A stretch of 35,300 nt of DNA from Oscillospiraceae bacterium (GTDB taxonomy: Bacteria > Bacillota > Clostridia > Oscillospirales > UBA929), in NCBI GenBank assembly GCA_031254575.1, contig JAIRUE010000086.1, forward strand, positions 1 to 35,300, written 5' to 3'. Both the position numbers and the translations under genes were made by a program. Shown here piece by piece: positions 1 through 15,671 of this stretch. The notes beneath the pieces were generated by a model. That model did not search any database. It was not told the DNA's origin and saw only the letters and a list, made by a program, of their open reading frames with translations. The first letter of the stretch is position 1. Each line of letters starts with the position of its first letter.

Positions 1-1393
1 CTGTTTCCGAGTCATAATACGCCGTGACATAGCTGCCCTCCACAAACCACGCGGGGTCCAGGCTGCCTGTCGTAAAGTCATCGGCCTCAGGCACGTCATT
101 GATTGTGTGGACGCGGAAACACAGCTTCCACGCCGCCGGGGACACCATGGGGGTGTAGCCTCCGTCTCTGAGAATCGCGTCCTCGTTGAGGGGGGTGAGG
201 TCCTTAAAGCCGGCGCGGCCTATCACGATCGGTTTCCAGGGCAGTTCCTCCTCCACCCTCTGGCCGACCGTGACCTTGGTGACCTGAAGATCAGCTGTGC
301 ACCCGCCGACGTTGAGTTTGTCAAGGAAATCCTCAAACTCCTCGGGGGGGAAGTTGATGTCCTCATAGCGGAACTGCGCGACGTTGCCGGTGAGGTTGGT
401 GGTGTAAGGCTCCGTTTTGCCCCAGCCAATCGTCCCGCCGGCATAGTTCTGGAAAATGAGCTCGGGGGCGTCGTCACTCTTATAATAGACGGTGATGATG
501 CTGCCCGGCACAAGGTATTCGCGGATCTCGGCGGGGTCAATGAATCCGGCCTGCCCCCACGCGCCGCAGGAACCCGGCGCGCCGTCCCAAAGGTGGTCGA
601 GCTGAATCTCTTCCACGATGTTATAGAGGAGGGAACGGTCGGCCGAACCGAAGCCGGCGGGCGGTTCAAAGGACGCGGAGGTGTCATAACCGGTCATGAT
701 GTTGCCGGAAGCGTCGTAGAAGGCGATGTAGTCGATGATAAGGTTGGCGGCGTGCTCACCCGCGGTGACGGCGCTGTCGTGCGTCTTGGTGAGGACGAGG
801 ATGTTCTTCGCGCCGGGAGCAAAGACCCGGTTGTCGTCCAGCTTTGCCGTCAGCTCTTTGAACAGGCTCTTATCCAGAGCAACGCCCCAAAGGAACTCGC
901 TCCTGTTGTTGCTTTCGCCGGTATAGGCCTCCAGCATACCCCCCGACGCGTAGAAATTGCCATCCGGGTGCTCGACCCAGATGCGCAGATCTATCTCGCG
1001 GACGTCGGCGACCCTGTCGCCGAACAGGCCGGAGATGTCAATGCCCAGATAGGGGCAGCCGCCCTCCGTGGTCTCGATTTTGAGCGCTTTGCCGCCGTTG
1101 TAGTCGATGACCGACATCACGGACGGGTCGGCGTTGCCGGGGGTGAGGTTAAAGGCGAGGTAACCGGTCCTGCCGTCGTCAAAGGTGATGGCGCCGTCGG
1201 GAATGGCTTTGGGCTGGGCGACAACCGGCGTGTCGTCCCAGGCCAACCCGCCGCCGCCGCCGCCTCCTCCGTCGCTGGCTTCAGCCGTAGACGGGGTGAC
1301 CGGTGACGGGGACGCCGTGTCTCCGCACGCCGTCAAAAGCGTGCCAAAGACGAGCAAGACCGACAGCAGCAGAGCAATTCGCTTTGTGTTCAT
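1..1393 (-). CDS. Secreted lipoprotein, partial (runs off left edge); probable beta-sandwich/carbohydrate-binding-like extracellular protein of the ABC cluster
   Basis: Open minus frame from ATG at 1393: MNTKRIALLLSVLLVFGTLLTACGDTASPSP...; signal peptide with lipobox LLTAC, then Ser/Pro and an 8-Gly linker. No stop before the window edge, so it is absent from the ORF track. Confidence 0.8.
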   Translation of the reverse strand, partial: MNTKRIALLLSVLLVFGTLLTACGDTASPSPVTPSTAEASDGGGGGGGGLAWDDTPVVAQPKAIPDGAITFDDGRTGYLAFNLTPGNADPSVMSVIDYNGGKALKIETTEGGCPYLGIDISGLFGDRVADVREIDLRIWVEHPDGNFYASGGMLEAYTGESNNRSEFLWGVALDKSLFKELTAKLDDNRVFAPGAKNILVLTKTHDSAVTAGEHAANLIIDYIAFYDASGNIMTGYDTSASFEPPAGFGSADRSLLYNIVEEIQLDHLWDGAPGSCGAWGQAGFIDPAEIREYLVPGSIITVYYKSDDAPELIFQNYAGGTIGWGKTEPYTTNLTGNVAQFRYEDINFPPEEFEDFLDKLNVGGCTADLQVTKVTVGQRVEEELPWKPIVIGRAGFKDLTPLNEDAILRDGGYTPMVSPAAWKLCFRVHTINDVPEADDFTTGSLDPAWFVEGSYVTAYYDSET

Positions 1394-1563
1394 GTTTTTC
1401 CCTCTTTCTTATATAAATTGGTTTTCTCGCGGTTTTCTGCGGTGTCACGCTCCAGCATTTCGCACACGGGCGATGGAGCCGCTCTGTGTCACGCTCCATG
1501 CCGCGCCCTCTCCGCTTCGCTTTCCCTCCGGAGACACCGTCTCCTGCGGAAAGCTGCGCTTCG

Positions 1564-1600
1564 GTCTGAAAATAACTCGCGGGATACGTTATTTTCAGAC
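1564..1600. repeat. Perfect 13-bp inverted repeat (hairpin) in the permease-lipoprotein intergenic region
   Basis: GTCTGAAAATAAC (1564-1576) / GTTATTTTCAGAC (1588-1600), 11-nt loop. Confidence 0.9.
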
Positions 1601-1621
1601 GCGGGCGATGGAGCCGCTCTT

Positions 1622-2608
1622 TTATCCCACTATTCCCGATCGCTCGACCCCCTCTATGAATCTCCTTTGCAGGAAGATGTAAATGATAATCATGGGCAAT
1701 ATCATCATAATAATGCCGGCGTATACATAGAGCGAGGAAATATTGGGATCGATGATCCGGTAACTGCCTGAGAGCGTATTGCCCAGCGTGTTGAGCTTTT
1801 TGGACAGGGCCCAGTCTCCGCTGATCTGGAAAACATTGGCGTAAAAGACATCGTTATACTGCCAGACCAGCGAGAAGATAAGCACCGTGATGATCGGGGG
1901 CATGGCGTTGGGGACCATCACGCGCAGATAGGTGTAAAACGTGCCCGCGCCGTCCACAAAGGCGGCTTCCTCGATCTCCTTGGGCAAGCCGCGGAAGAAT
2001 TGATTGAAGATATAGATATACAGTCCCGAACGCAGGCCGACGCCGAAGATCGTCAGCATATACATCGGAAAGAGCGTCGTGAGCATATTGGGCGGATTGC
2101 CTCCGGTGATCAGGGAGAGAATTCCCAGCGGGTCAAAGTTGCGGAAGGTCACATAGAGGGGCAGGATGACGCTGTGGGCGGGAAGGACGATGACGAGGAT
2201 GACGCAGGCAAAGAGAATCTTCTTCAGCGGGAACTGAAAGCGCGCGAAACCGTAGCCCACCATCGAGCAGACCACGATCTGGATAAGCGACAGCGAGCTG
2301 ATATAGAACAGCATGTTGCGCAGGACTTTCCAGTATTGGGTGACCGTGAGCATAAGAGAGTACCGCTCCAGCGTGGGGGATTGCGGAATAAGGTATATGG
2401 CGGGGCTGTACGCGTCCTCATTGGAGAAAAACGAGTTGAACGCGATGCCGATGATCGGGCCGAGGATGACATAGGAGATGCCGACGATCAGCGCCAGCCG
2501 GAAAAGGGAAAGAACAAACCCCATAAGCCAGCGGATGATCCGCTGCCTCTCGTTGCCCATCCTTGTATCCGCATTGAATTTCTTAATTCTCTGTTTCAGG
2601 GATTCCAA
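1622..2608 (-). CDS. Carbohydrate ABC transporter permease (MalG/LacG-type)
   Basis: 328 aa, multi-TM, EAA-loop-like segment 'LPKEIEEAAFVDGAGTFYTYLRVMVPNAMPPIITVLIF' typical of binding-protein-dependent transport inner-membrane components. Confidence 0.9.
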   Translation of the reverse strand: MESLKQRIKKFNADTRMGNERQRIIRWLMGFVLSLFRLALIVGISYVILGPIIGIAFNSFFSNEDAYSPAIYLIPQSPTLERYSLMLTVTQYWKVLRNMLFYISSLSLIQIVVCSMVGYGFARFQFPLKKILFACVILVIVLPAHSVILPLYVTFRNFDPLGILSLITGGNPPNMLTTLFPMYMLTIFGVGLRSGLYIYIFNQFFRGLPKEIEEAAFVDGAGTFYTYLRVMVPNAMPPIITVLIFSLVWQYNDVFYANVFQISGDWALSKKLNTLGNTLSGSYRIIDPNISSLYVYAGIIMMILPMIIIYIFLQRRFIEGVERSGIVG

Positions 2609-2684
2609 TCCTACCGCTCCTCTCCAAATCTGCGCGCGTCATATTCCTCGCCAGGCGTACAGCCGCGTTCCGCGCCCTCTCCGC

Positions 2685-3620
2685 TCAGTTATCGTAGTAA
2701 ACCAGCTTTGACACCGCATAGCTGGCGATACCCAGAATGCCGCAGACGCTTATCATGCTGATAAGGCTGAACGCCGCGCCGACCGAATAATTCTGTTCGC
2801 CGAACATGGTGTCGTATACTTCCTGCAGCACGCGGCTGTTGACAAAAGAGTCCAGCACGGTGTAAACCATATTGGTCACCAGCAGCGGCGACACCATAGG
2901 GAAGGTGATCTTCCAGAACGTCTCGTAAGTCGTCGCGCCCTCAATCTTCGCCACCTCATACAGGGAGGGCGAGATCGATTGCAGCGCCGCGAGGAAGATG
3001 ATGATCTGCACGCCGGACATGGTGATAACGGTGTTGATGCGGGACACCGCGCCGACGATGTATTCGAGTACCGTTTCCGGCAGGGCGATGTCGCCCAGGA
3101 GGTCTATGTAGTAAAGAATCCCCGCGCTCCCGCCGCCGGCGCCCGAAACGGAGTCCACCACCGCGGACGGAGCGGGGCTGGAACCTCCGATCATCATGGC
3201 TCTCACAAGGTCCAGCGCCTGAACGATCGCCGGGGCGTTGAGCAGGGCCGGCAGGAAAAAGATGGCGCGGGCGACCGTGCGCCCCCGGAACTTCTGGTTG
3301 AGTACGATGGCTATGAACAGGGAGAAGAAAATAATCAGCGGAACGTCAACGACCATGTTAATCAGCGACTCGGTCAGTATCTGCGTAAAACGCGGGTGGC
3401 CGGTGAACGCGTAACGGAAATTCTCCAGCCCGATAAACCTCGTCGTGTACCCCAATCCCTCCGTCGTCGTCTCGGAAAAGGCAAACTGCCCCACCATCCA
3501 AAGGCTTCGCACGTAAAACAGCAAAAACCCCAAGACGAACGGCGATATGAACAAAAGGCCCGTGACGGCGCGCCGCTGCGAAAGCGTCATGCCCCTGCGC
3601 TTTTTCACCACCCCGGTCAT
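2685..3620 (-). CDS. Sugar ABC transporter permease (MalF/UgpA-type)
   Basis: 311 aa, multi-TM, EAA loop 'SPSLYEVAKIEGATTYETFWKITFPMVSPLL'. Confidence 0.9.
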   Translation of the reverse strand: MTGVVKKRRGMTLSQRRAVTGLLFISPFVLGFLLFYVRSLWMVGQFAFSETTTEGLGYTTRFIGLENFRYAFTGHPRFTQILTESLINMVVDVPLIIFFSLFIAIVLNQKFRGRTVARAIFFLPALLNAPAIVQALDLVRAMMIGGSSPAPSAVVDSVSGAGGGSAGILYYIDLLGDIALPETVLEYIVGAVSRINTVITMSGVQIIIFLAALQSISPSLYEVAKIEGATTYETFWKITFPMVSPLLVTNMVYTVLDSFVNSRVLQEVYDTMFGEQNYSVGAAFSLISMISVCGILGIASYAVSKLVYYDN

Positions 3621-6208
3621 GCCGCGGCCCCCTCTCTGACCGCGAACCCGCGCGCGGACACCGTCAGGCCCCCGTAGGAGAGGTCCGTGCCGGTATAGTT
3701 GACGAGAATCTGGATGCCGTTGTCATACGTGACGCACCGCAGGCCGTCCGGCATGATCTCATGCCGGACAATGGCGCTGCCGCTCACCCGGCTGAGAATC
3801 GGGTTGACGGTATGGTACAACTCCATTGCCTCAGCCACCCAGTTCTGATAGTAGGTGCCGTAAAAACGGTTGAGGCCGGTGTACTTCATCCCGCTGGCTT
3901 CCTCATAGGTAAAGGTGAAGTGGGGGGAGGCGCCGGTCTCAAGCAGCCGCAGCACGGTGCCGGCGCGGTCGTGGGCGTCGCTGTGATTGACGGCGTAGCC
4001 CGCGTAGGGGATATAGCCGTGGATCACCATCTGGTAAAAGGGCACTTCCTCGTCCACGATATAGAAGTCGCTGTGCTCCAGCGAGATATTGATCAGATCG
4101 TCCGCGTAAGGGAGGGCGTACAGGTTGCCGCCCGACACCATGACGTCCTTGCCCATCCCGGCGATCTTTTCCAGCTGGCCCTTCACCACGTCCAGGGACT
4201 GCTCCCTGTCGATGAGTTCGGTGCGTTTGCGGTCGGAGTGAAGCTCGTCCCCAAGGTCGCGCAGCGAGACGCCGGTCACGTTATACGGCTCAAAGCGTTT
4301 GGTAAACGCGTCCACATAGCGGGGCAAGAATTTGGGGCTTATGAGCGCGTTCCACGTCTCCGGGTATCCGAGCGAATAGGTGGTGTAGCTGACCGGGTCG
4401 ATCTGCTGCGCCCACCACCCCGTCAGGTTGCCGCCGTAATAACGCGAGTTCTCCATGGCGTAATTGTACCGTTTGGCGTTGTACGGGACGTTTTGGAACA
4501 AGACGTCGGCGTACAGTTTGCCGCCCTGCGCCTCCAGCTTGGCCGACAGGTCCTCAAACTTTTTCCTGCTCCCAAGCTGCCGCACGAGGATTATCCTGTT
4601 GGCGGCGTCGTGGAAATAGCCGCGGTTGAGCCACCCCTGATAATTGACCACCTGATTGGACACGCCGCCCTCACGGAACAGGTCCACAATTTCCGCCGCC
4701 TGCGCGTATGTGGTCATCGGGATGCTGCCCTGATACTGGACGGAGAGCATAAACTTCGTCCCCGTGACGGCTCCGACCATGTCCATGTATAAGGGAATGT
4801 CCCCCTGCCCGGCGGATTCTCCCAGCGCGCCTTCGCGGATCAGCCTCTCGCGATAATACCGCGCCATACCGGAGTAGCCGTCATAGCCGGCGTCCAGAAA
4901 GCTGTAGCGCACCGTCAGGTCGGCATTATAAATATTGGCCTCCACGACGGGCATTTCGGCCTCCGTGCCCGTGTTGCCGAACATATACAGGGAAAGGCTG
5001 CCGCGTACGATAAAGGTCGGGTAGACGCTGTTATACGACGCCGTTCTTCCGGACACGGCCGCGGCGAGCTGGACAAACGTATGCCCCTCCTCGATCTGGG
5101 CAAAGACGGAAGGCCCTCCCTCCCGGTAAATCCCGAACACCGGCATCCTGGCCGTTTCGTTGTTGCCCAGCACGGTATACTCGTTGTCCATCGGGTCCTG
5201 CCCGTACAGATACTGGCTGTACTCCTCGGCGTGATCCTTGCCGTTGTTGAAACGTATCAGGGAACCGGAGCCGTTGGGGACGAGCAGGTAACCGCTCTCA
5301 CCGGTCCCGGCCGCGCCGAGGCTGCGCGCGAATTGAATCTGATATATCCTGGCGCCGCCTGTCTCCACGATGCGGTGCGTGGGAACCGACACCTTCAGGC
5401 TGTCGCCGTCCAGCCGGTATTCCAGCGGAACCTCAAAGCTGACGGTCACGGCGCCCTCCACGCCCGACGCCAGCGAATCCTCCAGCCAGTCCTCCTCGGT
5501 ATACCCGGCCCCCTCGAAGATAGCGAGCAGCTTGCGGACGGTAGCCGCGCCCCTCGCGTTCGCGAACAGCTCCCAAAATCCCTCCGGGGCGTCTTCGGAC
5601 TCAATATACCGCATCTCAACGTACTCGCGGTCTTTGGGGTCCTCCACCCTGTCAAGGAAAAAGTCCAGCCGGTCGCGGTGGATATAGAGAGGGACGATGC
5701 CGGTGGTCACCCTAAGGTCGCCCAGCGTATAGACATACCGCAGGCCCCCGTCGAGGCTCTCAGCCCTGAACTGCCCGTCCTTGATCGCGTAATCGTAGAC
5801 GTTGTAACGGCCCGGCGTCCGGCGGGCATTGAAAAAATCGATGGTCAGAGGCGACTTCAGGATCGACTTGTTGAGACCGGACGCGATGGGGTCCTCGTCG
5901 GCGTCCGGCGGGCAGACGTACGTAATCAACCCCGAGCGCTTGTCATACACGGCGGCGTTTGTGGATTCAAGGTCGGTGTACAGCTGCAAAAACCCGTTTT
6001 CGGCCGCGAGAACCATTCCCGGCACGTTCCCGCCGCCCTGCAGCGGCGCGAAAGCGCGCCCCTCCTCGTAATAGGCGCCGCGTTCCTCAAGGTACTGCTT
6101 GTACCCGCCGTACATGCGGTAGTAGAATTGCAGATACCCCTGATAGATCAGGATCACCAGAGCGGCAACCCCCAGCACGGTCAGCAGCAGTTTTGTCCCC
6201 AGTTTCAT
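3617..6208 (-). CDS. Large membrane-anchored DUF5696-like protein (possible glycoside-hydrolase-like fold)
   Basis: 863 aa; N-terminal TM anchor (MKLGTKLLLTVLGVAALVILIYQGYLQFYY), long soluble region, C-terminal beta segment 'CVTYDNGIQILVNYTGTDLSYGGLTVSARGFAV'. Family assigned from memory of sequence style and neighbourhood (sugar permeases plus Yip1). Confidence 0.65.
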   Translation of the reverse strand: MKLGTKLLLTVLGVAALVILIYQGYLQFYYRMYGGYKQYLEERGAYYEEGRAFAPLQGGGNVPGMVLAAENGFLQLYTDLESTNAAVYDKRSGLITYVCPPDADEDPIASGLNKSILKSPLTIDFFNARRTPGRYNVYDYAIKDGQFRAESLDGGLRYVYTLGDLRVTTGIVPLYIHRDRLDFFLDRVEDPKDREYVEMRYIESEDAPEGFWELFANARGAATVRKLLAIFEGAGYTEEDWLEDSLASGVEGAVTVSFEVPLEYRLDGDSLKVSVPTHRIVETGGARIYQIQFARSLGAAGTGESGYLLVPNGSGSLIRFNNGKDHAEEYSQYLYGQDPMDNEYTVLGNNETARMPVFGIYREGGPSVFAQIEEGHTFVQLAAAVSGRTASYNSVYPTFIVRGSLSLYMFGNTGTEAEMPVVEANIYNADLTVRYSFLDAGYDGYSGMARYYRERLIREGALGESAGQGDIPLYMDMVGAVTGTKFMLSVQYQGSIPMTTYAQAAEIVDLFREGGVSNQVVNYQGWLNRGYFHDAANRIILVRQLGSRKKFEDLSAKLEAQGGKLYADVLFQNVPYNAKRYNYAMENSRYYGGNLTGWWAQQIDPVSYTTYSLGYPETWNALISPKFLPRYVDAFTKRFEPYNVTGVSLRDLGDELHSDRKRTELIDREQSLDVVKGQLEKIAGMGKDVMVSGGNLYALPYADDLINISLEHSDFYIVDEEVPFYQMVIHGYIPYAGYAVNHSDAHDRAGTVLRLLETGASPHFTFTYEEASGMKYTGLNRFYGTYYQNWVAEAMELYHTVNPILSRVSGSAIVRHEIMPDGLRCVTYDNGIQILVNYTGTDLSYGGLTVSARGFAVREGAAA

Positions 6209-6219
6209 CGGCGGTCCCC

Positions 6220-6852
6220 CTATCCCCTGAGCATCAGGTCGTTATAGATACTTTCAAAGAAGGTAAACACCTGATTGAGCATGTCGAACAGCAGCAGCAC
6301 AAGGAAAATGATGATAAACATGGCTATCAGCGTGAGAATCAGCGTAAAAATCGTTTTGACCAGCGTGTAGTTGTGCACCGTCATGATCCCCGTCAGAATC
6401 AGCAGGGCTGTCCACGCGACGCCCAAGCCGATGATAAGGACATAAAAGACTTCCTCATTGGCCGCCAGCACGTTGGAGATGAGAATGGCGGGAATGTAGG
6501 TAATGATGAGCGGCAGGAACGCGTAGCCCGTCACCGTCATAATATCCTTGAACCGGCCCTCGCCCTCCATCAGGCAGGTGATCGACCAGTTGCCGATGCA
6601 AAACAGCAGATAGAGCAGAAAGATGCTCTGCAGATCGGTCAGCCCGTTGACCGAACGCGGGTCGGTCAGGTTTACGATGAAGCCCGCGAAGATGCGGTTG
6701 CAGGTATAGCACAGGCTGAACAGGAAGACGATAATCAGCGCCAGCGGCACGCTTCCCTTCTCCCTGTGCCGTATCTCGTAGAAGGTATCGGCGGGATGGT
6801 TCAGGACCCGGACGAGGTGCTGAAATTTGTCGCGTGTAAAAATTTTAGTCAT
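6220..6852 (-). CDS. Yip1 family membrane protein
   Basis: About 210 aa from MTKIFTRDKFQHLVRVLNHPADTFYEIRHREKGS; roughly 5 TM. ATG at 6852 overlaps the upstream stop (ATGACTAA), implying translational coupling. Confidence 0.75.
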   Translation of the reverse strand: MTKIFTRDKFQHLVRVLNHPADTFYEIRHREKGSVPLALIIVFLFSLCYTCNRIFAGFIVNLTDPRSVNGLTDLQSIFLLYLLFCIGNWSITCLMEGEGRFKDIMTVTGYAFLPLIITYIPAILISNVLAANEEVFYVLIIGLGVAWTALLILTGIMTVHNYTLVKTIFTLILTLIAMFIIIFLVLLLFDMLNQVFTFFESIYNDLMLRG

Positions 6853-8332
6853 CGGCGAGCAGATCCCCCTTCTCGGTCCCTTTTTGCCTGACCAGACTCC
6901 GCACATACAACGCCAGCGCCGCCACGATGACCCCCGTGAGGATATACCCCAGATTCGCCTTGAGGATGTTGTTGCGGTAGCGCTTGAAAGCGATGGAGTA
7001 ATACGTGCGGTTCATGCCCAGCTTGAGGTGCTTCATGGCCTCCTTGTTATTCCCCTCGGTGAGGTACGCCTTGCCGATGCCGATATTGGCCAGCTCAAGG
7101 TTTTCATTGAGGGTGAGCACCTGCCGCCACAGATCCACCGCCAGCCCCTCGTCGCCGTCCTGCCGGAGCCCGACCGCGGTGTTGATAAGACTGCCGTATT
7201 CCGTCTCGGTAAAAATCATGATCTCCAGCCGCCCGGAGTCGAGCACAAGCAGCTTATCCCCGGTGGAGGCCAGCGCGCAGGGGGCCTTGAACGTACCGGC
7301 CTGTGTGCCCATACCGCCGAAGATATAGAGCAGATTGCCCTCGTAGTCGTAGGTGAAGACGCGCCCGCGTTTTGAGTCTAGCATGGAATAGATGCCCTTG
7401 CCCCGGTAGAGGATGTCCACGATCTTGGAGGGGCCGTCGAACTCACCGGCGACGGCGGGGAGAAAAAAGACATCTCCCCCGACATTGTTGTTCTCCCCCT
7501 TTCTGATGACGTCCACGCCCTTGGGGTTGAGCCGGAAAGCGGCCTGCGTTCCCTGGGGGTCGATGCAGGAGGCATAGACAAATCCCGCGTCGTCCACGTC
7601 GACGCCGGTAAACTCGGTGGGAATGAACAACTGCTGCAGCTTGCGCTGCTCTTTGGTGGAAAGGCTGCGCCAAATGCGCTGCCAAAGGGAGACCGAAACC
7701 GGAATCGTTCCGAAAAAGCTCAGAAATTCGCCATCCGCCGTAAAGACCATGATCCCCTGAAACATATTTCTGGCGACCACATATACCCGGTCGGCATAGT
7801 CCACCGCCACCTTCAGCGGGGAAAACTCATACTCCGCCGGCAGGATCTCGCTCTTCGGGTCGGCAATGATCCGAACGGCTCTGTCCCCGTCCAGCACGAC
7901 AATCCGCTTGTTCTCGGTGTCGGCCACATAGAGCAGGTTTTTTTCCGATACCGTCACCCCGTAAGGCTTGCGGAACGTATCGGGCGTCCCGCCGTTGTCA
8001 AACGTCTCGATGACGGCGACCGCTCCGGTCAGTTCCTGATTGACGACGACGATGCGGTCGTTATCGGTATCGGCCACATAAATCAGCCCGTCCGGCGCGA
8101 CGCAAAAGCTCTGCGGATTCCTGAACGGGGTGATCCCGAGCGTCTGCCCCGAAACCGTTCCGGCGGGGACATACGGCGCGGGCGTGAACTCGATATATTC
8201 GCGGTAGTTGAACGTATAGGAATCATACGGCACGTCGGCCGCGGCCAGAGCCGGCACGGCGCAGGAGAGCAGCGCGGCGGACGCCGCCGTCAGCGCCGCC
8301 AGCCTTGCAAAGCGTTTCACGACCTGTCGCAC
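6845..8332 (-). CDS. Secreted/membrane-anchored NHL-repeat (beta-propeller) protein with C-terminal TPR-like segment and TM helix
   Basis: 495 aa; signal peptide; repeats such as 'FRNPQSFCVAPDGLIYVADTDNDRIVVVNQ' and 'FRKPYGVTVSEKNLLYVADTENKRIVVLD'; TPR-like 'ELANIGIGKAYLTEGNNKEAMKHLKLGM'; C-terminal TM 'LGYILTGVIVAALALYV'. Confidence 0.8.
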   Translation of the reverse strand: MRQVVKRFARLAALTAASAALLSCAVPALAAADVPYDSYTFNYREYIEFTPAPYVPAGTVSGQTLGITPFRNPQSFCVAPDGLIYVADTDNDRIVVVNQELTGAVAVIETFDNGGTPDTFRKPYGVTVSEKNLLYVADTENKRIVVLDGDRAVRIIADPKSEILPAEYEFSPLKVAVDYADRVYVVARNMFQGIMVFTADGEFLSFFGTIPVSVSLWQRIWRSLSTKEQRKLQQLFIPTEFTGVDVDDAGFVYASCIDPQGTQAAFRLNPKGVDVIRKGENNNVGGDVFFLPAVAGEFDGPSKIVDILYRGKGIYSMLDSKRGRVFTYDYEGNLLYIFGGMGTQAGTFKAPCALASTGDKLLVLDSGRLEIMIFTETEYGSLINTAVGLRQDGDEGLAVDLWRQVLTLNENLELANIGIGKAYLTEGNNKEAMKHLKLGMNRTYYSIAFKRYRNNILKANLGYILTGVIVAALALYVRSLVRQKGTEKGDLLADD

Positions 8333-8336
8333 CCCC

Positions 8337-9251
8337 TTAGTCTTTCATCCCGGACGTCGTCATCGTCTCAAGGATGCTGGACTGGCATATGAGGAAAAAG
8401 GTGATCGGAATGGCGGCAAGGACGAACGCCACCGCCATAGCCTCGCCGGCACGGCGCGCGCCGCCCGCCGCGATCTGCTGCATGGCAAACTGCAGCGGTT
8501 TCAGTTCCTCGCTGCGCAAAAACATATACCCGGTATTGCCCCACATCGTCTGGAACTGGAAGATGGCGAGCGTCAGCCACGCGGGCTTGACATTGGGCAT
8601 AATGATCTGCCAGAAAACCCTGACCTCGCCCGAGCCGTCCATCCGCGCCGATTCGAGCAGCGAGTCGGGGATCTGTTCCATAAACTGCTTCATCAGGTAG
8701 AGCCCCAGCCCATAGCCCCACGCGGGCAGGATCAGGGCGAGATAGGTGTTGTTGAAGCCCAGGAAGGAAATGATGACATAATTGGGGATTTGCGTGACCT
8801 GATAGGTGAACATCAGCGAGAGGATAACCAGCGTGAACAGCGCCTTCTTGCCGGGGAATGTGTGTTTGGCCAGCGGGTAGGCCGCGAACGACGCGATGAC
8901 GACATGCCCCACCACGCCGCAGCCCATGATGATGGTCGTGTTGAAGATATACCGCGTGAACGGCACCCATGTGTCGCTCATCGAGATAAAGAGGTCGGTA
9001 AAGTTTTCAAACGTGGGGTTGCGCACGAAAATGCGCGGCGGGTATGTAAAGATTTCATCCAGCGGTTTAAGCGCGTTGTTGATGACGATGATCAGCGGCA
9101 TCACCATAAAGACGCCGAAGAGCGCCATGAAGAAGAACATCATGGTATTGCCGGCGCGCGACCGGTTCAGTTTCTTCTCGCGGCGAAACACGCGCTCAAA
9201 GAACGTCTCCTTGACAATGACGGGGCCCTCGGAATTCTTAACCTTGACCAT
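8337..9251 (-). CDS. Carbohydrate ABC transporter permease (MalG-type), second pair
   Basis: 304 aa, multi-TM, EAA loop 'IPDSLLESARMDGSGEVRVFWQIIMPNVKPAWLTLAIFQF'. Confidence 0.9.
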   Translation of the reverse strand: MVKVKNSEGPVIVKETFFERVFRREKKLNRSRAGNTMMFFFMALFGVFMVMPLIIVINNALKPLDEIFTYPPRIFVRNPTFENFTDLFISMSDTWVPFTRYIFNTTIIMGCGVVGHVVIASFAAYPLAKHTFPGKKALFTLVILSLMFTYQVTQIPNYVIISFLGFNNTYLALILPAWGYGLGLYLMKQFMEQIPDSLLESARMDGSGEVRVFWQIIMPNVKPAWLTLAIFQFQTMWGNTGYMFLRSEELKPLQFAMQQIAAGGARRAGEAMAVAFVLAAIPITFFLICQSSILETMTTSGMKD

Positions 9252-9254
9252 GCC

Positions 9255-10175
9255 TCAATCGCCCACCTTCCTCAGCAGACGCTGCACCAGTTTGTTTGTG
9301 CCTATCATCAGCAGAAACAGCACTGTCGCGATGGCGGAAGCGTAGCCCATTTCAAAGCGGACGCCGCCGTAGTCCTGAAGATGGGTGACGATGGTGGCCC
9401 CGGCGTAGCCGACCGAGGGGTTGCCGGCGAGCTGGATGGAAACGTCGGCGATGGCGAACGAGGCCGTGATCTGCATGACCGCGCCGAACATGAGCTGCGG
9501 CTTTATGGCCGGCAGGGTGACAAACCACAGCTCCTGCCAGCGGTTTTTGATCCCGTCGATCGCCGCCGCCTCATAAAGCGCCTTATCAATGGTCTGCAGG
9601 CCCGCGATAAAGGCGAGGAAACCGGTCCCGAGCGAAAGCCAGAGCTGCACGATGATGAGCACCGGCAGGACGTATTTGGCCGTCACCATCCAGAGGATGG
9701 GCTCCTGTATAAAGTCGTTTTGCAGCAGAAACCCGTTGAGAAGGCCGTAGCGGTCGCCGGTGAGGATGATGTTCCAGACAAGGTACGCCTGTCCGGCAAT
9801 CGACGGCGCGTAAAAGATGAGGGTGAGAAAGGCGCGCAGCTTGCCTTTGAACTCGTTGATGATCCACGCGAACAGCAGGCAGAGGAGATAACTGACCGGC
9901 CCGGTGATCACGGCGAGGATCAGCGTGTTTTTTAAGGAGATGATGAAAATATCGTCCTCCAGCAGGAGCTTGAGATAGTTCGTCCAACCGACGAACTTCG
10001 GCAGTTCGAGCATGTTGAAGTAGGTCAGCGATATGAACATGGAGGCGACGACCGGGAGGATGGTGAAACAGGTAAACAGAAGGAAATAGGGAGCCATCAT
10101 CAGGTAGGAGGCCTTGTGCTTTGACAGGACCGCCCCCACAGACGGTTTCTCGGACTGTTTCTGCGTTTTTGTCAC
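9255..10175 (-). CDS. Sugar ABC transporter permease (MalF/UgpA-type), second pair
   Basis: Multi-TM; EAA loop 'IDKALYEAAAIDGIKNRWQELWFVTLPAIKPQLMF'. ORF track starts at 10217, inside the upstream gene; a GTG start at 10175 (VTKTQKQSEK...) is more likely. Confidence 0.88.
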   Translation of the reverse strand: MTKTQKQSEKPSVGAVLSKHKASYLMMAPYFLLFTCFTILPVVASMFISLTYFNMLELPKFVGWTNYLKLLLEDDIFIISLKNTLILAVITGPVSYLLCLLFAWIINEFKGKLRAFLTLIFYAPSIAGQAYLVWNIILTGDRYGLLNGFLLQNDFIQEPILWMVTAKYVLPVLIIVQLWLSLGTGFLAFIAGLQTIDKALYEAAAIDGIKNRWQELWFVTLPAIKPQLMFGAVMQITASFAIADVSIQLAGNPSVGYAGATIVTHLQDYGGVRFEMGYASAIATVLFLLMIGTNKLVQRLLRKVGD

Positions 10176-10179
10176 GCCG

Positions 10180-13149
10180 TCAGCCCCTTTCCGTGCCGCC
10201 GTAAAGCGGCAGACCAAATTCCCTGCGCTTGAAATCTATCTCCTCATTGATCAGGATCACCTTGTCGGTCAGCGCCTCGCGCGGAAACTCAAAGACGTCG
10301 GCCGAGGCCCCGATCGGCCTCCAGCCGGTGACCACGGCATAGAAGGCGTTATTGATGTTGCGGTAGCTGAAATAGCCGCCGGGCACCTGCGGGACGCCCC
10401 GCACCGACTCATACTGGCTTGCCAGCGCCTGATAGTCGGTGATGGGCCACGGAAGCCTCTCAAACGCGTCCTTGTTGGCGGTCGGCACGCGCGCCGCCGC
10501 GCCCATAAGGCTCTCCATCTCCCGCCCGTACAGCGTCTGCGTATCGGCGTCCGTCCACCATTTGAGAAATTCCCAAGACTGCTCCGGGCTGGCGGCGGAC
10601 TCCATGATAATGCAAGCCGAACCGAAACTGCCCACCGAGCGGTTGAGGCCCCCGGCGGCGTCCACGGTCGCGGGCACGGGGGTAAATCCCCACAGCCCCT
10701 TAAGATCGGGCGCGGAGACCTGCAGGGTGTTGTAGAAGATATAGTCCTGTATGATGATGGGCGCCTCGCCGGTGCGGAAACGCTCCTCTACGCTGGTGTC
10801 CTTATCCAGCTTATAATCGGTAAAGAGTTCCGTATACAGCTTGAACGCCTGATACGCCTCTTCGCTGTCGAGCGCGGAGCGCGTCGCGCCCTCATTGTAG
10901 TATTTCCCGCCGTACTGGTAGAGGAACATGGCGTAGATCGGCTCGGCCGGCTTCATCCCCAGTTCCATCTGATTGTTGGCCAGCACGGCCAGCGCCACCT
11001 TCATGTCGTCCCATGTGTCGGGGATCTTGAGCCCCAGCTCCTTGAGGATGTCCTTCCGGTAGAACATCATCGGGAAAGTCTGGGTTTCCGGAAGGCCGTA
11101 AACCGCGCCGTTATAGGTAAGGCCCTCCATGGCGCTCGGCCGGAACCGCGCCGTGACCACCGGCAGGTCGGAAAATTGCGAGAGGTCGGCCACCGCGTTG
11201 CGCAGGCCGAAATTCATCGGCAGGTCGTTGCCCACCTGAATGGCCACATCCGGCCCCTGCCCCGCCAGGGTCGCCTGCATCAGCGTGCTCATATCGATCA
11301 GCACGACGTTGACGTTGATACCGGTGACGCGGGTAAACGTTTCGTCTATCAGCGATTTGATGACGTTCGCCTGGTCGCGGCCGGAGCCGATCCAAAGGGT
11401 GACGGTATTCCCGTCTTTTTCATCGGACACATTGCCGATCTGGTTGTAGTCTATGACAAACGAGTAGAACAGGCGCTGGAACTCATACCCGATCCGCGAG
11501 AAAACGGAGCTGTTTTTGGCTTTCGGCTTCACACCCGGCTGATGGAAGGTGATCGTGTCGAGCTGGAGAGGCTGCTCAATCGCCTGTGTCAGCCATGTGC
11601 CGCAGGCGCGCACGTTGACCATAAAGGAATTGATCGTCTTGGGGAAGCGCTCGCCGTCTTTGATCAGTTCGTCGAGGTGGGCGATCATCGTCTTCAGCAC
11701 GCGCTCGCGGTCGCTGCGCTTGCCCGCCACACGCTGCAGCTCGTCAACGGCCCACTGGAGATTGTCGCGCACGGCGATCATCTCGCCCCTCAGTTCCGGC
11801 AGGCTGGTTTCCACCTGGTAGTCGCGGTATTTGTCCGGCTTTACGCCGGTGAGATGGATGACTTTGCGGTATATGCCGTTCAGGCCGGAAACCGCGTCGC
11901 GCACGACCCCGATCGCCCCTCCGAGGCTGCCCAGCACCGCCTCGGCGCGCAGTGTGTGCCGGCCCTTTTCAAGGTAGATCTTATAGGCCCCGCCGTCGCG
12001 GTCCGCCAGCGTCTCCATATGCCAGCTCTGTTTATAAATAAACCCGTAATCCTCAAATTCCGCAAACGGCACGACGCCGTCAATGCTGATCTTTCTTGAC
12101 ATGTGGATGCCCTTGGAGAAGTTCTGCAAAACGTGCAGCGACAGTTCATAAAGCCCGTCCCCGGGCACATCGAAGTCCCACTCGACCCATTGCCCCGCCA
12201 TCCTCCATGAGTAGCCGCCGATGGTGTTGTTGAGCAGCACTTTGGGACTGGAGGGGGTGACGGACGGGGAGGACTGGTCCTGCACGGGGTAGAGCATCTG
12301 CGAGGAAGTGCGGGAGGTGTTCTGCGCCTGAATGGTGACGGACTCCGAAGCGTCCCTCGCGCCCGCCCGCACCCATCCGGCCAGCGCCTCGGCATACGGC
12401 GCGGGGTACGGCTCGTTGCTCAGGTTGAGGCTGTTGATCAGCATGGGCTCGCGCAGGGAGAGAAGGGCGAGGGTGTGCTCTCCTTTTTCAAGGTAGAGGG
12501 AAAGCCGGCTCGTTATGTACCCGTCGCTGTCGTAGAAGTAACTGTCAATCCATTGGGGGCATTCGTCCATCGTGGGTTTGAGGTCGTTGCCCTGATTGTC
12601 CTTTCCCCAGACCGGCTCCGGGCTGCCGTCCGCCTCGGCCGCGATGGCGGCGCTGTTGCTCCAGACGCGCTGGAACTCGACGGTCGAAAACTCGCGGTAC
12701 GGGAGCTCCCCGTCGAGAAAAACACCCCTCTGGATCGCGGAGTTTTTCCCCCCGACCGGGTAGTAGAGGATCGAGAGGTCGTACAGCCCGCTCTCCGGGA
12801 CCGCGATCACAAATTCGGTCAGCGCGTCCTCGGCGGTCAGCACGCCGCCCCGGGCCGTGCCGCCGATGTCCGTGACGATCTCGGGAGATACGGCCGCGCC
12901 GCCCTCCTCATAACGCGCGACGGCGTCCGTGCCGAACGTGACGTGTACGTCGGGCCGGTTCTGCGGGTGCAGGGCGAGATATTCCCCGTAACCGGGAATC
13001 GACTCGTCGATCGAATACCCCTCGATAATATCCTCGTAGTCGTCGCGCGTCATGTCCCCCGGCGTATAGCCGTATGCCGGAAGCGCCGTAAGCAGCGCCA
13101 AAGCCGTCAAAACGGCCAGCGCGCGGACCGGAATTTTTTTCCGTACCAT
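10180..13149 (-). CDS. Very large extracellular solute-binding protein: N-terminal carbohydrate-binding-like modules fused to a sugar-type SBP domain
   Basis: 989 aa with signal peptide. Two similar beta-rich modules ('GLYDLSILYYPVGGKNSAIQRGVFLDGELPYREF', 'GLYELSLHVLQNFSKGIHMSRKISIDGVVPFAEF'). C-terminal SBP region with 'TVTLWIGSGRDQANVIKSLIDETFTRVTGINVNV', 'YGLPETQTFPMMFYRKDILKELGLKIPDTWDDM' and 'AASPEQSWEFLKWWTDADTQ'. Confidence 0.88.
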   Translation of the reverse strand: MVRKKIPVRALAVLTALALLTALPAYGYTPGDMTRDDYEDIIEGYSIDESIPGYGEYLALHPQNRPDVHVTFGTDAVARYEEGGAAVSPEIVTDIGGTARGGVLTAEDALTEFVIAVPESGLYDLSILYYPVGGKNSAIQRGVFLDGELPYREFSTVEFQRVWSNSAAIAAEADGSPEPVWGKDNQGNDLKPTMDECPQWIDSYFYDSDGYITSRLSLYLEKGEHTLALLSLREPMLINSLNLSNEPYPAPYAEALAGWVRAGARDASESVTIQAQNTSRTSSQMLYPVQDQSSPSVTPSSPKVLLNNTIGGYSWRMAGQWVEWDFDVPGDGLYELSLHVLQNFSKGIHMSRKISIDGVVPFAEFEDYGFIYKQSWHMETLADRDGGAYKIYLEKGRHTLRAEAVLGSLGGAIGVVRDAVSGLNGIYRKVIHLTGVKPDKYRDYQVETSLPELRGEMIAVRDNLQWAVDELQRVAGKRSDRERVLKTMIAHLDELIKDGERFPKTINSFMVNVRACGTWLTQAIEQPLQLDTITFHQPGVKPKAKNSSVFSRIGYEFQRLFYSFVIDYNQIGNVSDEKDGNTVTLWIGSGRDQANVIKSLIDETFTRVTGINVNVVLIDMSTLMQATLAGQGPDVAIQVGNDLPMNFGLRNAVADLSQFSDLPVVTARFRPSAMEGLTYNGAVYGLPETQTFPMMFYRKDILKELGLKIPDTWDDMKVALAVLANNQMELGMKPAEPIYAMFLYQYGGKYYNEGATRSALDSEEAYQAFKLYTELFTDYKLDKDTSVEERFRTGEAPIIIQDYIFYNTLQVSAPDLKGLWGFTPVPATVDAAGGLNRSVGSFGSACIIMESAASPEQSWEFLKWWTDADTQTLYGREMESLMGAAARVPTANKDAFERLPWPITDYQALASQYESVRGVPQVPGGYFSYRNINNAFYAVVTGWRPIGASADVFEFPREALTDKVILINEEIDFKRREFGLPLYGGTERG

Positions 13150-13206: not shown

Positions 13207-13235
13207 ATTTTAATACATTGTTAACAAAAAGTCAA
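13207..13235 (-). promoter_or_regulatory. Predicted sigmaA promoter for the large minus-strand ABC cluster
   Basis: On the minus strand: TTGACT (13230-13235), 17-nt spacer, TAAAAT (13207-13212), upstream of the 13149 start. Confidence 0.6.
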
Positions 13236-13367
13236 TAGCAATAATGCGTTTTCTTGTTTTCATAAGTTTACCGGATACCTTGTACGCCGCCGTTTCTCCG
13301 GCTGTTTCCCGCGCGGCGTTTTTGTGGTATACTGCATGTATATTTCTGTCGGAAGGTGGGTCCCGCT

Positions 13368-14339
13368 TTGAAACGGCTGTTTCTATGCCTTACCTCTATT
13401 CTTTTGGCGCTCTCTTTATGCGCCTGCGGCGCCGCGTCCCCCTCCCCGTCCGGGCCGGAGGAGCCCGTCCGTATCGGCGCGCTCAGGGGCGCGACGGCTA
13501 TCGGCCTTGTAAAGCTGATGGAAGACGCGAAAACCCCGGGCAGTTCTCCGGACCTGCTGTTCGACGTCGTGACCACCGACGAGCTCGTGCCTCTGCTGGC
13601 GCGCGGCGAGCTCGATATGGCGGCCGTCCCCGCCCATCTGGCCGCGACGCTGTACAACAACACCGGCGGCGCTTTCCGCGTCGTCGCGGTCAATACGCTG
13701 GGGCTTTTTTACATTGTCGAGACGGGCGACACGATTCATTCCATCGAGGATCTGCGCGGCAAAACCGTTATGTCGACAGGAAAAGGCACGACGCCGGAAT
13801 TTACGCTGCGGCATATCCTCCGGCAAAACGGTATCGACCCCGATACCGGCCTGACGCTGGAATTCAAAAACGAGCCCGCCGAAATCGTGGCCATCCTCCG
13901 GCAAAACGGCGGGATCGCCATGCTGCAGCAGCCCTTTGTCACCACGGCGGAGGATAACGTGCCGGAATTGCGCGAGGCGCTTGACCTCACGAAAGAATGG
14001 GACAAGCTGGACTCCTCCGGCACCCTCGTCATCGGCGTGTTCATCGCCCGGACGGCGTTTCTGGAGCAGACCGCCGCCGTTCCCGCCATTCTGGACGGAT
14101 ACCGCCGCTCGGTGGACTGGGTCAACCAAAACCCCGCCGAAGCCGCCCCGCTGGTGGAAGAACTGGGCATTGCCGCGGCGGATGTGGCGGCGCGCGCCAT
14201 CCCCAAGTGCCACACCGTCTTTGTCGAGGGGGCGGAGATGAGGGAGATGCTGGAGGGGTATTTCGCCGCGCTGTTTGAAAACGCGCCCGAATCGGTCGGC
14301 GGCGCGCTGCCCGGCCCGGATTTTTACTATGTTCCGTAA
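13368..14339 (+). CDS. ABC transporter substrate-binding lipoprotein (NMT1/SsuA/NitT-TauT-like)
   Basis: ORF 13356-14339. Probable TTG start at 13368 (LKRLFLCLTSILLALSLCACG) preceded by GGAAGG; lipobox LCAC; SBP-like 'VRIGALRGATAIGLVKLME' and 'IEDLRGKTVMSTGKGTTPEFTLRHIL'. Confidence 0.85.
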   Translation: MKRLFLCLTSILLALSLCACGAASPSPSGPEEPVRIGALRGATAIGLVKLMEDAKTPGSSPDLLFDVVTTDELVPLLARGELDMAAVPAHLAATLYNNTGGAFRVVAVNTLGLFYIVETGDTIHSIEDLRGKTVMSTGKGTTPEFTLRHILRQNGIDPDTGLTLEFKNEPAEIVAILRQNGGIAMLQQPFVTTAEDNVPELREALDLTKEWDKLDSSGTLVIGVFIARTAFLEQTAAVPAILDGYRRSVDWVNQNPAEAAPLVEELGIAAADVAARAIPKCHTVFVEGAEMREMLEGYFAALFENAPESVGGALPGPDFYYVP

Positions 14340-15081
14340 CCGGCGGATTACCGCCCTGCTCTGCGCCTTTTTCTGGCTGGCGCTGTGGCATGTGGGAAGC
14401 CTGCTGGTGGGGGAGGATGTACTGCTCGTCTCCCCGCTCGCGGCGGCGGCGCGCCTGTTCGCGCTGGCCGGAACGTCTCTTTTCTGGAAAACGGCGGGAT
14501 TTTCCCTCGTGCGGATCATGGGCGGGTTTTTTCTCGCGCTCGCGTCGGGCATGCTGCTGGCGGCTTCGGCTTACCGCCTCCAGCCCGTCAGGGCGTTGCT
14601 CGCTCCCCTGCTCAGCGCGGCGAAATCCGTGCCGGTCGCGTCGTATACCGTCCTCTGCCTTGTCTTTCTGCGGGCGAGAAGCCTGCCGCTGATCATCGCG
14701 TTTCTGATGACGCTGCCGATCTTCTATGACAGCCTTTTGGAGGGATTGCTGAACACCGACGGAAACCTGCTCGAAATGGCAGGCGTCTTCCGCGTGACGC
14801 CCCTCCGCCGCCTGCGTGCCATATACGTCCCGCAATGCCTGCCATATTTGGTTTCGGCGATCGGCGTCGGAATCGGCATCGCGTGGAAGTCGGGGGTTGC
14901 GGCCGAGGTTATCGGCCTGCCGCAGGGGGCGGTCGGCACGCGTATCTACGAGGCCAAACTCACGCTGGACACGCGCGGCCTGTTCGCGTGGACCGTCGCG
15001 GTCATGCTGCTGTGTTTCGCGCTTGAAAAATCGGTGCTGTTTCTCGTCCGCCGCGCCGCGGGCGCTCTGGAGAGGGTGTAG
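14329..15081 (+). CDS. ABC transporter permease (SsuC/TauC-like)
   Basis: Start MFRNRRITALLCAFFWLALWHV overlaps the stop of the SBP gene (ATGTTCCGTAA); multi-TM; 'LLEMAGVFRVTPLRRLRAIYVPQCLPYLVSAIGVGIGIAWKSGVAAEVIG'. Confidence 0.88.
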   Translation: MFRNRRITALLCAFFWLALWHVGSLLVGEDVLLVSPLAAAARLFALAGTSLFWKTAGFSLVRIMGGFFLALASGMLLAASAYRLQPVRALLAPLLSAAKSVPVASYTVLCLVFLRARSLPLIIAFLMTLPIFYDSLLEGLLNTDGNLLEMAGVFRVTPLRRLRAIYVPQCLPYLVSAIGVGIGIAWKSGVAAEVIGLPQGAVGTRIYEAKLTLDTRGLFAWTVAVMLLCFALEKSVLFLVRRAAGALERV

Positions 15082-15083
15082 GT

Positions 15084-15671
15084 ATGGGCGGAATCGTTCT
15101 CGGCGGCCTCTACAAGGCCTTTGGCGAAAAGCGCGTCCTGGAAAACGTCTCGCACACCTTCGAGGCCGGAAAGATCCACGGTGTCATGGGCCCGTCCGGC
15201 TGCGGCAAAACCACGCTGCTGCATATCCTGCTGGGTTTGCTGAAGCCCGACGCGGGAACGGTGTCCGGCGCAAATCCGGGCGCGCTGAGCGCCGTGTTTC
15301 AGGAGGACCGCCTGTGCGAGAGGCTGGGCGCGGGGGCCAACGTGCGCCTGGCCGCGCCGCAATGGCGGGACAGAATTGCCCTGCGGGCTCTTTTTGAGGA
15401 GATGGGGCTGGGCGGGGCTGAAAAAACGCCCGTATACGAGCTGTCGGGCGGCATGAAGCGCCGCGTCGCGCTGCTGCGGGCGCTGGCCGCGCCGTCGGAG
15501 CTGATCGTCATGGACGAACCGTTCACCGGGCTGGACGGGGCGATGAAGGAAACGGTCGCCGGCTGCGTACGGCGGCGGCTGGACGGGCGCACGGTCATCA
15601 TGGCGACGCACAGCGAGGGGGACCTGGACCTGCTGGGCGGGTCCGCGGGGCTCATTTTGCCGCTGCTGTAA
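15084..15671 (+). CDS. ABC transporter ATP-binding protein (SsuB/TauB-like, short)
   Basis: 195 aa; Walker A 'GPSGCGKTT', signature 'LSGGMKRRV', Walker B 'LIVMDEPFTGLD'. Confidence 0.93.
   Translation: MGGIVLGGLYKAFGEKRVLENVSHTFEAGKIHGVMGPSGCGKTTLLHILLGLLKPDAGTVSGANPGALSAVFQEDRLCERLGAGANVRLAAPQWRDRIALRALFEEMGLGGAEKTPVYELSGGMKRRVALLRALAAPSELIVMDEPFTGLDGAMKETVAGCVRRRLDGRTVIMATHSEGDLDLLGGSAGLILPLL

Follow-up and report, generated by a model that had tools for sequence, protein, structure and literature searches.

Gene content and organization of the cluster

Polysaccharide uptake in Firmicutes is usually described as the work of one binding protein and one permease pair. The locus studied here carries two such pairs within a run of nine genes, which raises the question whether these genes form a single system and what that system does. 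The window, i.e., the whole stretch of DNA analyzed, is one complete contig (G000:C83) of 35300 bp, and a Pfam scan of its ORFs showed that nine minus-strand genes fill positions 1-13149. In the order of transcription, they encode a 989-aa binding protein (SBPlong, 10180-13149; SBP_bac_1, 1.7e-23), the permeases MalF1 (9255-10217, start codon uncertain) and MalG1 (8337-9251), an NHL beta-propeller protein (6845-8332), a Yip1 membrane protein (6220-6849; 4.5e-17), a DUF5696 protein (3617-6208), the permeases MalF2 (2685-3620) and MalG2 (1622-2608, TTG start), and a lipoprotein with a CBM65 domain (2-1393; CBM65_1, 1.7e-14). All four permeases have a BPD_transp_1 domain. Hydropathy analysis predicted a C-terminal transmembrane segment in the NHL protein (residues 456-474) and five hydrophobic segments in Yip1. 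An earlier sequence-only reading had named the protein types of these nine genes, with two MalF/MalG pairs flanking the NHL, Yip1 and "DUF5696-like" genes and no ATPase, and Pfam agreed in each respect: no ATPase gene was found within the cluster, and the DUF5696 assignment is a true one (E 1e-186, 622 bits).

The genes are closely packed. The start of yip1 overlaps the stop of the NHL gene at the junction ATGACTAA in the 6845-6852 region, and the genes for DUF5696 and MalF2 share positions 3617-3620. Whereas these proposed overlaps were confirmed, the junctions are not all tight, since gaps of 76 nt and 228 nt separate MalF2 from MalG2 and MalG2 from the lipoprotein gene, respectively. The promoter proposed at 13207-13235 on the minus strand (TTGACT-17-TAAAAT) is present as a candidate site with 10 of 12 consensus matches, but it is a consensus match only, and such sites are no commoner around the cluster than in shuffled sequences (5 found, 4.6 expected). 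The lipoprotein has an LTAC lipobox and stops after 464 aa because the contig ends there; its homologs occupy the same position in 44 related loci, with a full-length homolog of 546 aa in locus L164.

The 228-nt gap contains a 28-nt direct repeat (1458-1485 and 1593-1620; 89% identical, 135 nt apart). The 18-nt core of this repeat has one further copy in the genome, on contig C80 and with one mismatch, so it is not a common dispersed type. Divergent plus-strand genes at 13244-15671 adjoin the cluster; one of them encodes a nitrate/taurine-type permease (BPD_transp_1, 14275-15081) that is apparently unrelated to the glycan importer. Elsewhere in the window, the minus strand carries at 19349-29134 genes whose translations alone suggest a methionyl-tRNA synthetase and a glycogen operon (phosphorylase, synthase, GlgD, GlgC, branching enzyme).

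The cluster is conserved as one genetic unit

To check the conservation of this organization, DUF5696 matches were collected from 399 Bacillota genomes together with their surrounding genes. A second set was anchored on SBPlong and comprised 80 named genome loci, which represent the best SBPlong matches and not a random sample. Seven core genes were tested for synteny; Yip1 was left out of the count because it is often fused. In relatives it is either a gene of its own or, in many cases, part of the NHL protein. In all 97 full loci the seven genes lay on one strand, and in 92 of them the order was SBPlong-MalF1-MalG1-NHL-(Yip1)-DUF5696-MalF2-MalG2; the other five had the two halves swapped. 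Median gaps inside the core ranged from -5 to 19 nt. One apparent DUF5696 fusion, a 1887-aa ORF in locus L183, was discarded since Pfam recognized a partial DUF5696 domain only. A full module with lipoprotein was also present in a locus labelled Anaerolineaceae (Chloroflexota; L105), for which horizontal transfer and a binning error are both possible.

The two ends of the core also occur together at the genome level. A strong DUF5696 match was found in 37 of the 399 genomes, and all 37 also matched the N-terminal part of SBPlong, one of them (G103) only through an incomplete match where a contig ends. SBPlong without DUF5696 was seen in two genomes (G104 and G155). We do not regard these as counter-examples, as their SBPlong contigs measure 3788 and 4307 bp and are thus so short that the other half could not be visible. 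The association was highly significant (Fisher p ~3e-50, 399 genomes), a value that overstates its strength because related genomes were counted as independent. In addition, the distance matrices of the seven proteins were correlated with pairwise r of 0.90-0.97, compared to a permutation maximum of 0.24 for the two pairs tested; part of this correlation reflects shared ancestry.

Several of the sampled genomes carry three copies of the unit. The genome from which the window derives is such a case, with the window copy and two further whole modules on contig C116 (loci L041 and L042). For every gene of the window copy, the counterpart in locus L133 is nearer (61-83% identity) than the paralogs in the same genome, which indicates that the unit diversifies largely as a block. 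The grouping of the nine genes is not due to chance. The synteny, the co-occurrence and the matched distances reject the possibility of two unrelated operons, and the sequence-only proposal of a single apparatus for binding and importing a complex glycan has good support at the level of the genetic unit.

SBPlong and a second binding protein

In SBPlong, Pfam recognized the solute-binding domain at residues 596-871 only. The AlphaFold2 model (pLDDT 86.5) contains two beta-sandwich modules (approximately residues 70-244 and 271-405), a helical region (407-524) and then the binding domain at approximately 529-977. For the second beta-sandwich module, a match was obtained in the CBM35 region of cycloisomaltooligosaccharide glucanotransferase (CITase). 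The closest solved relatives of the binding domain are Lin1841, which binds beta-1,2-glucooligosaccharides (5ysb, 2e-30), and Tlet_1705 (5ci5, 3e-26); unlike SBPlong, both consist of a single domain of about 400 residues and lack the N-terminal modules. The N-terminus of SBPlong is signal-like, and a simple pattern detected a lipobox in 8 of 109 sequences. As the lipobox is rare, an uncleaved anchor or the partner proteins may keep SBPlong in place.

In many loci, a second binding-protein gene flanks the module, either shortly after MalG2 or shortly before SBPlong. In the closest relative, L133, the operon continues past the lipoprotein gene with such a binding-protein gene. On the Butyrivibrio fibrisolvens plasmid pNP243 (L176, 1970-20015), the module stands beside a GH43 gene and two binding-protein genes and also adjoins a histidine kinase/response regulator pair.

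These genes bear on how the two permease pairs relate to each other. It is somewhat unlikely that the cluster encodes two ordinary, physically separate CUT1 importers which are co-regulated and take up different fragments of the same glycan, with NHL-Yip1, DUF5696 and the lipoprotein as independent surface binders. Such an arrangement would agree with the finding that the DUF5696/MalF2-MalG2 half is often followed by a binding protein of its own, and with the isolated halves seen in genome G062. Besides two full modules, this genome has two loci with NHL-DUF5696-MalF2-MalG2, SBPlong being absent nearby, and one with SBPlong-MalF1-MalG1 alone. It is at odds, however, with how strictly the three partners and the gene order are conserved and with the co-occurrence in all 37 genomes. 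A single physical complex formed by the two importers and their partners is a real possibility that we hold to be short of probable, and the halves found apart in multi-copy genomes suggest that such a complex would not have to be permanent.

Genes adjoining the module point to a likely substrate

In 43 loci including L133, the gene upstream of SBPlong belongs to a single blastp cluster and lies on the same strand within about 1.5 kb. Representatives of this cluster were scanned with Pfam, and the L133 member is a GH26 protein with CBM35 (6e-64). Several loci from Paenibacillus and Thermoanaerobacterium have a gene of this cluster on the downstream side of MalG2 or of the second binding-protein gene. 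In locus L168, the downstream genes encode a second binding protein, DUF624, LacI, GH130, a GDSL esterase and a GH1-mannose-6-phosphate isomerase protein. Judged from these annotations, the neighbor set of L133 and L168 looks like a beta-mannan program. In the genome of the window copy, GH26 is represented by three genes and GH130 by two, but none of these was seen beside the window cluster. Since the relatives of the window copy adjoin a GH26 mannanase, beta-mannan, or glucomannan oligosaccharides, is the likely substrate of this member.

Other copies have other neighbors. One module on contig C116 adjoins GH66-CBM35 and GH31-CBM35 genes (dextran type) and the other GH16-GH30 and GH3 genes (beta-1,3/1,6-glucan type), and the flanks of further loci contain alginate lyase, pectate lyase, GH42, GH43 and GH3 genes. 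As the neighboring enzymes differ between the copies, the platform appears to be general. That the role of the system is glycan import can be stated with high confidence. Of the earlier proposal that the apparatus "binds, processes and imports" a complex glycan, the link to glycans was thus upheld by the neighboring enzymes, but processing by the core itself is doubtful: in relatives the depolymerizing enzyme is a separate GH26 protein, and the one core protein with a glycosidase fold is probably not catalytic, as described below.

DUF5696 has a GH129-like fold

The DUF5696 protein has an N-terminal transmembrane anchor. Its AlphaFold2 model (pLDDT 86.8) shows a fold for which Foldseek gave glycosidases of family GH129 as best matches (5opq, E 1.4e-34; 5wzr, E 3e-28). 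The DUF5696 profile also matched GH129 by sequence (1e-10), while a profile search with the barrel alone returned nothing relevant. The best fold and profile matches were NagBb (5wzn) and DagB/ZgGH129 (5opq). DUF5696 differs from these enzymes by its low identity (12-13%), its transmembrane anchor, its place inside an importer operon and the lack of strictly conserved catalytic acids. The catalytic Asp of GH129 is D435 in NagBb, which corresponds to D486 in DagB (PMC5698469). Each Asp and Glu of the barrel varied in at least one of the 110 DUF5696 sequences compared: D659 was kept in 105 of them, D719 in 101 and D651 in 89.

It is unlikely that DUF5696 is an active exo-glycosidase which removes side chains at the membrane ahead of import. 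Its GH129-like fold and the retention of D659 (95%), D719 and D651 in most sequences speak for such an activity, but some divergent copies have His or Ala in place of D659, and the strand expected to carry the acid/base residue reads GGN-Y; all these positions were assigned by the order of the strands, not by superposition. Moreover, subunits of this one type go with glycans of very different kinds. Since its GH129-like fold lacks catalytic acids that are strictly conserved, DUF5696 is probably a glycan-binding or scaffold subunit, as far as model and alignment can tell.

Both permease pairs retain the EAA loop

The EAA loop is the part of a permease that couples to the ATPase. It is kept in MalF1 (108 sequences) and likewise in MalG1, MalF2 and MalG2 (106-110 sequences each), so both pairs look like working importers, and on the basis of these alignments both probably import. 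The suggestion that one pair serves as a sensor or energizer of the surface proteins and not as an importer has become very improbable, because the loops of MalF2 and MalG2 resemble those of MalF1 and MalG1 and many relatives, including the closest one, have a second binding-protein gene by the module, even if no such gene is visible in the window and it is unusual for an importer to have Yip1 and NHL as partners.

An ATPase of the MsmX/UgpC class is encoded elsewhere in the genome, as an orphan on contig C71 that scored over the cut-off (498.8 bits) and is placed away from permease genes. In about 120 loci, MsmX-like matches near the module reached at most 157 bits, compared to about 900 for the genome's own copy, with one exception: on a Paenibacillus cellulosilyticus plasmid (L177), a UgpC gene (414 bits) is located directly upstream of SBPlong. 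Both the orphan gene and the plasmid copy fit the expectation that the system borrows its ATPase, and a shared enzyme of the MsmX/UgpC type is the probable candidate. The plasmid module itself (5480-28527) is complete and is ringed by genes for LLM-class flavin oxidoreductases and for two additional binding proteins, which suggest an unusual substrate.

Discussion

The family-1-type solute-binding domain of SBPlong is a hallmark of CUT1 importers, and with MalEFGK-type systems that use an MsmX/UgpC ATPase the cluster shares the SBP_bac_1 protein, MalF/MalG-type permeases with EAA loops and an ATPase encoded elsewhere. It differs from them by its 989-aa binding protein, by the conserved NHL, Yip1 and DUF5696 proteins and by two permease pairs, present in all 97 full loci, where CUT1 systems have one heterodimer each. 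It is therefore a variant of a CUT1 importer and not a plain member. A related gene content is known from Roseburia intestinalis, where the MULL/MULS loci combine GH26, GH130, esterases, LacI and a CUT1 importer for beta-mannan, which was described as one binding protein with two permeases (PMC6385246). The relatives' loci described here share this gene set, but in comparison with the Roseburia importer, which is described without NHL, Yip1 and DUF5696, the cluster has the importer twice and three conserved partners in addition.

We consider it reasonably probable that the genes together specify a compound importer of the CUT1 type for glycans, i.e., two importers that share surface partners and, in this member, likely handle beta-mannan or glucomannan oligosaccharides. 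A surface mannanase would cut the polymer, and the CBM-like modules of SBPlong, the CBM65 lipoprotein, DUF5696 and NHL would retain the fragments at the membrane. SBPlong would then deliver to MalF1-MalG1 and the second binding protein to MalF2-MalG2, with a common MsmX/UgpC-type ATPase powering both pairs. NHL-Yip1 and DUF5696 may act as binding and scaffold subunits that join the importers, and GH130 phosphorylases and esterases would complete the breakdown. More tentatively, the products might constitute a single machine in which a GH129-fold subunit without catalytic function and a membrane scaffold of NHL-Yip1 connect two ABC importers, equipped with a shared MsmX-type ATPase and glycan-specific binding modules and hydrolases, perhaps for longer chains than a single importer handles. 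Such a machine would be a Firmicutes counterpart of the SusCD utilisomes of Bacteroidota, in which binding proteins, enzymes and transporter cooperate at the surface in outer-membrane TonB-dependent transport. The idea of joint surface action is alike, whereas the components are not known to be shared.

In the open-access papers searched, neither a description of this module nor a paper on the DUF5696 family was found, in line with the sequence-only reading; as most subscription journals and all bioRxiv preprints lay outside the search, the novelty is provisional. The cluster thus apparently represents a conserved but undescribed sugar-uptake system of Firmicutes, in which two ABC importers are combined with a fixed set of surface proteins. 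It doubles the usual importer core and adds three conserved partners that so far have domain-level names only. The partners remain constant while the adjoining hydrolases vary from glycan to glycan, a pattern that suggests an import platform of general use. DUF5696 thereby gains a testable role, and transport prediction for gut, rumen, termite and soil bacteria would be affected.
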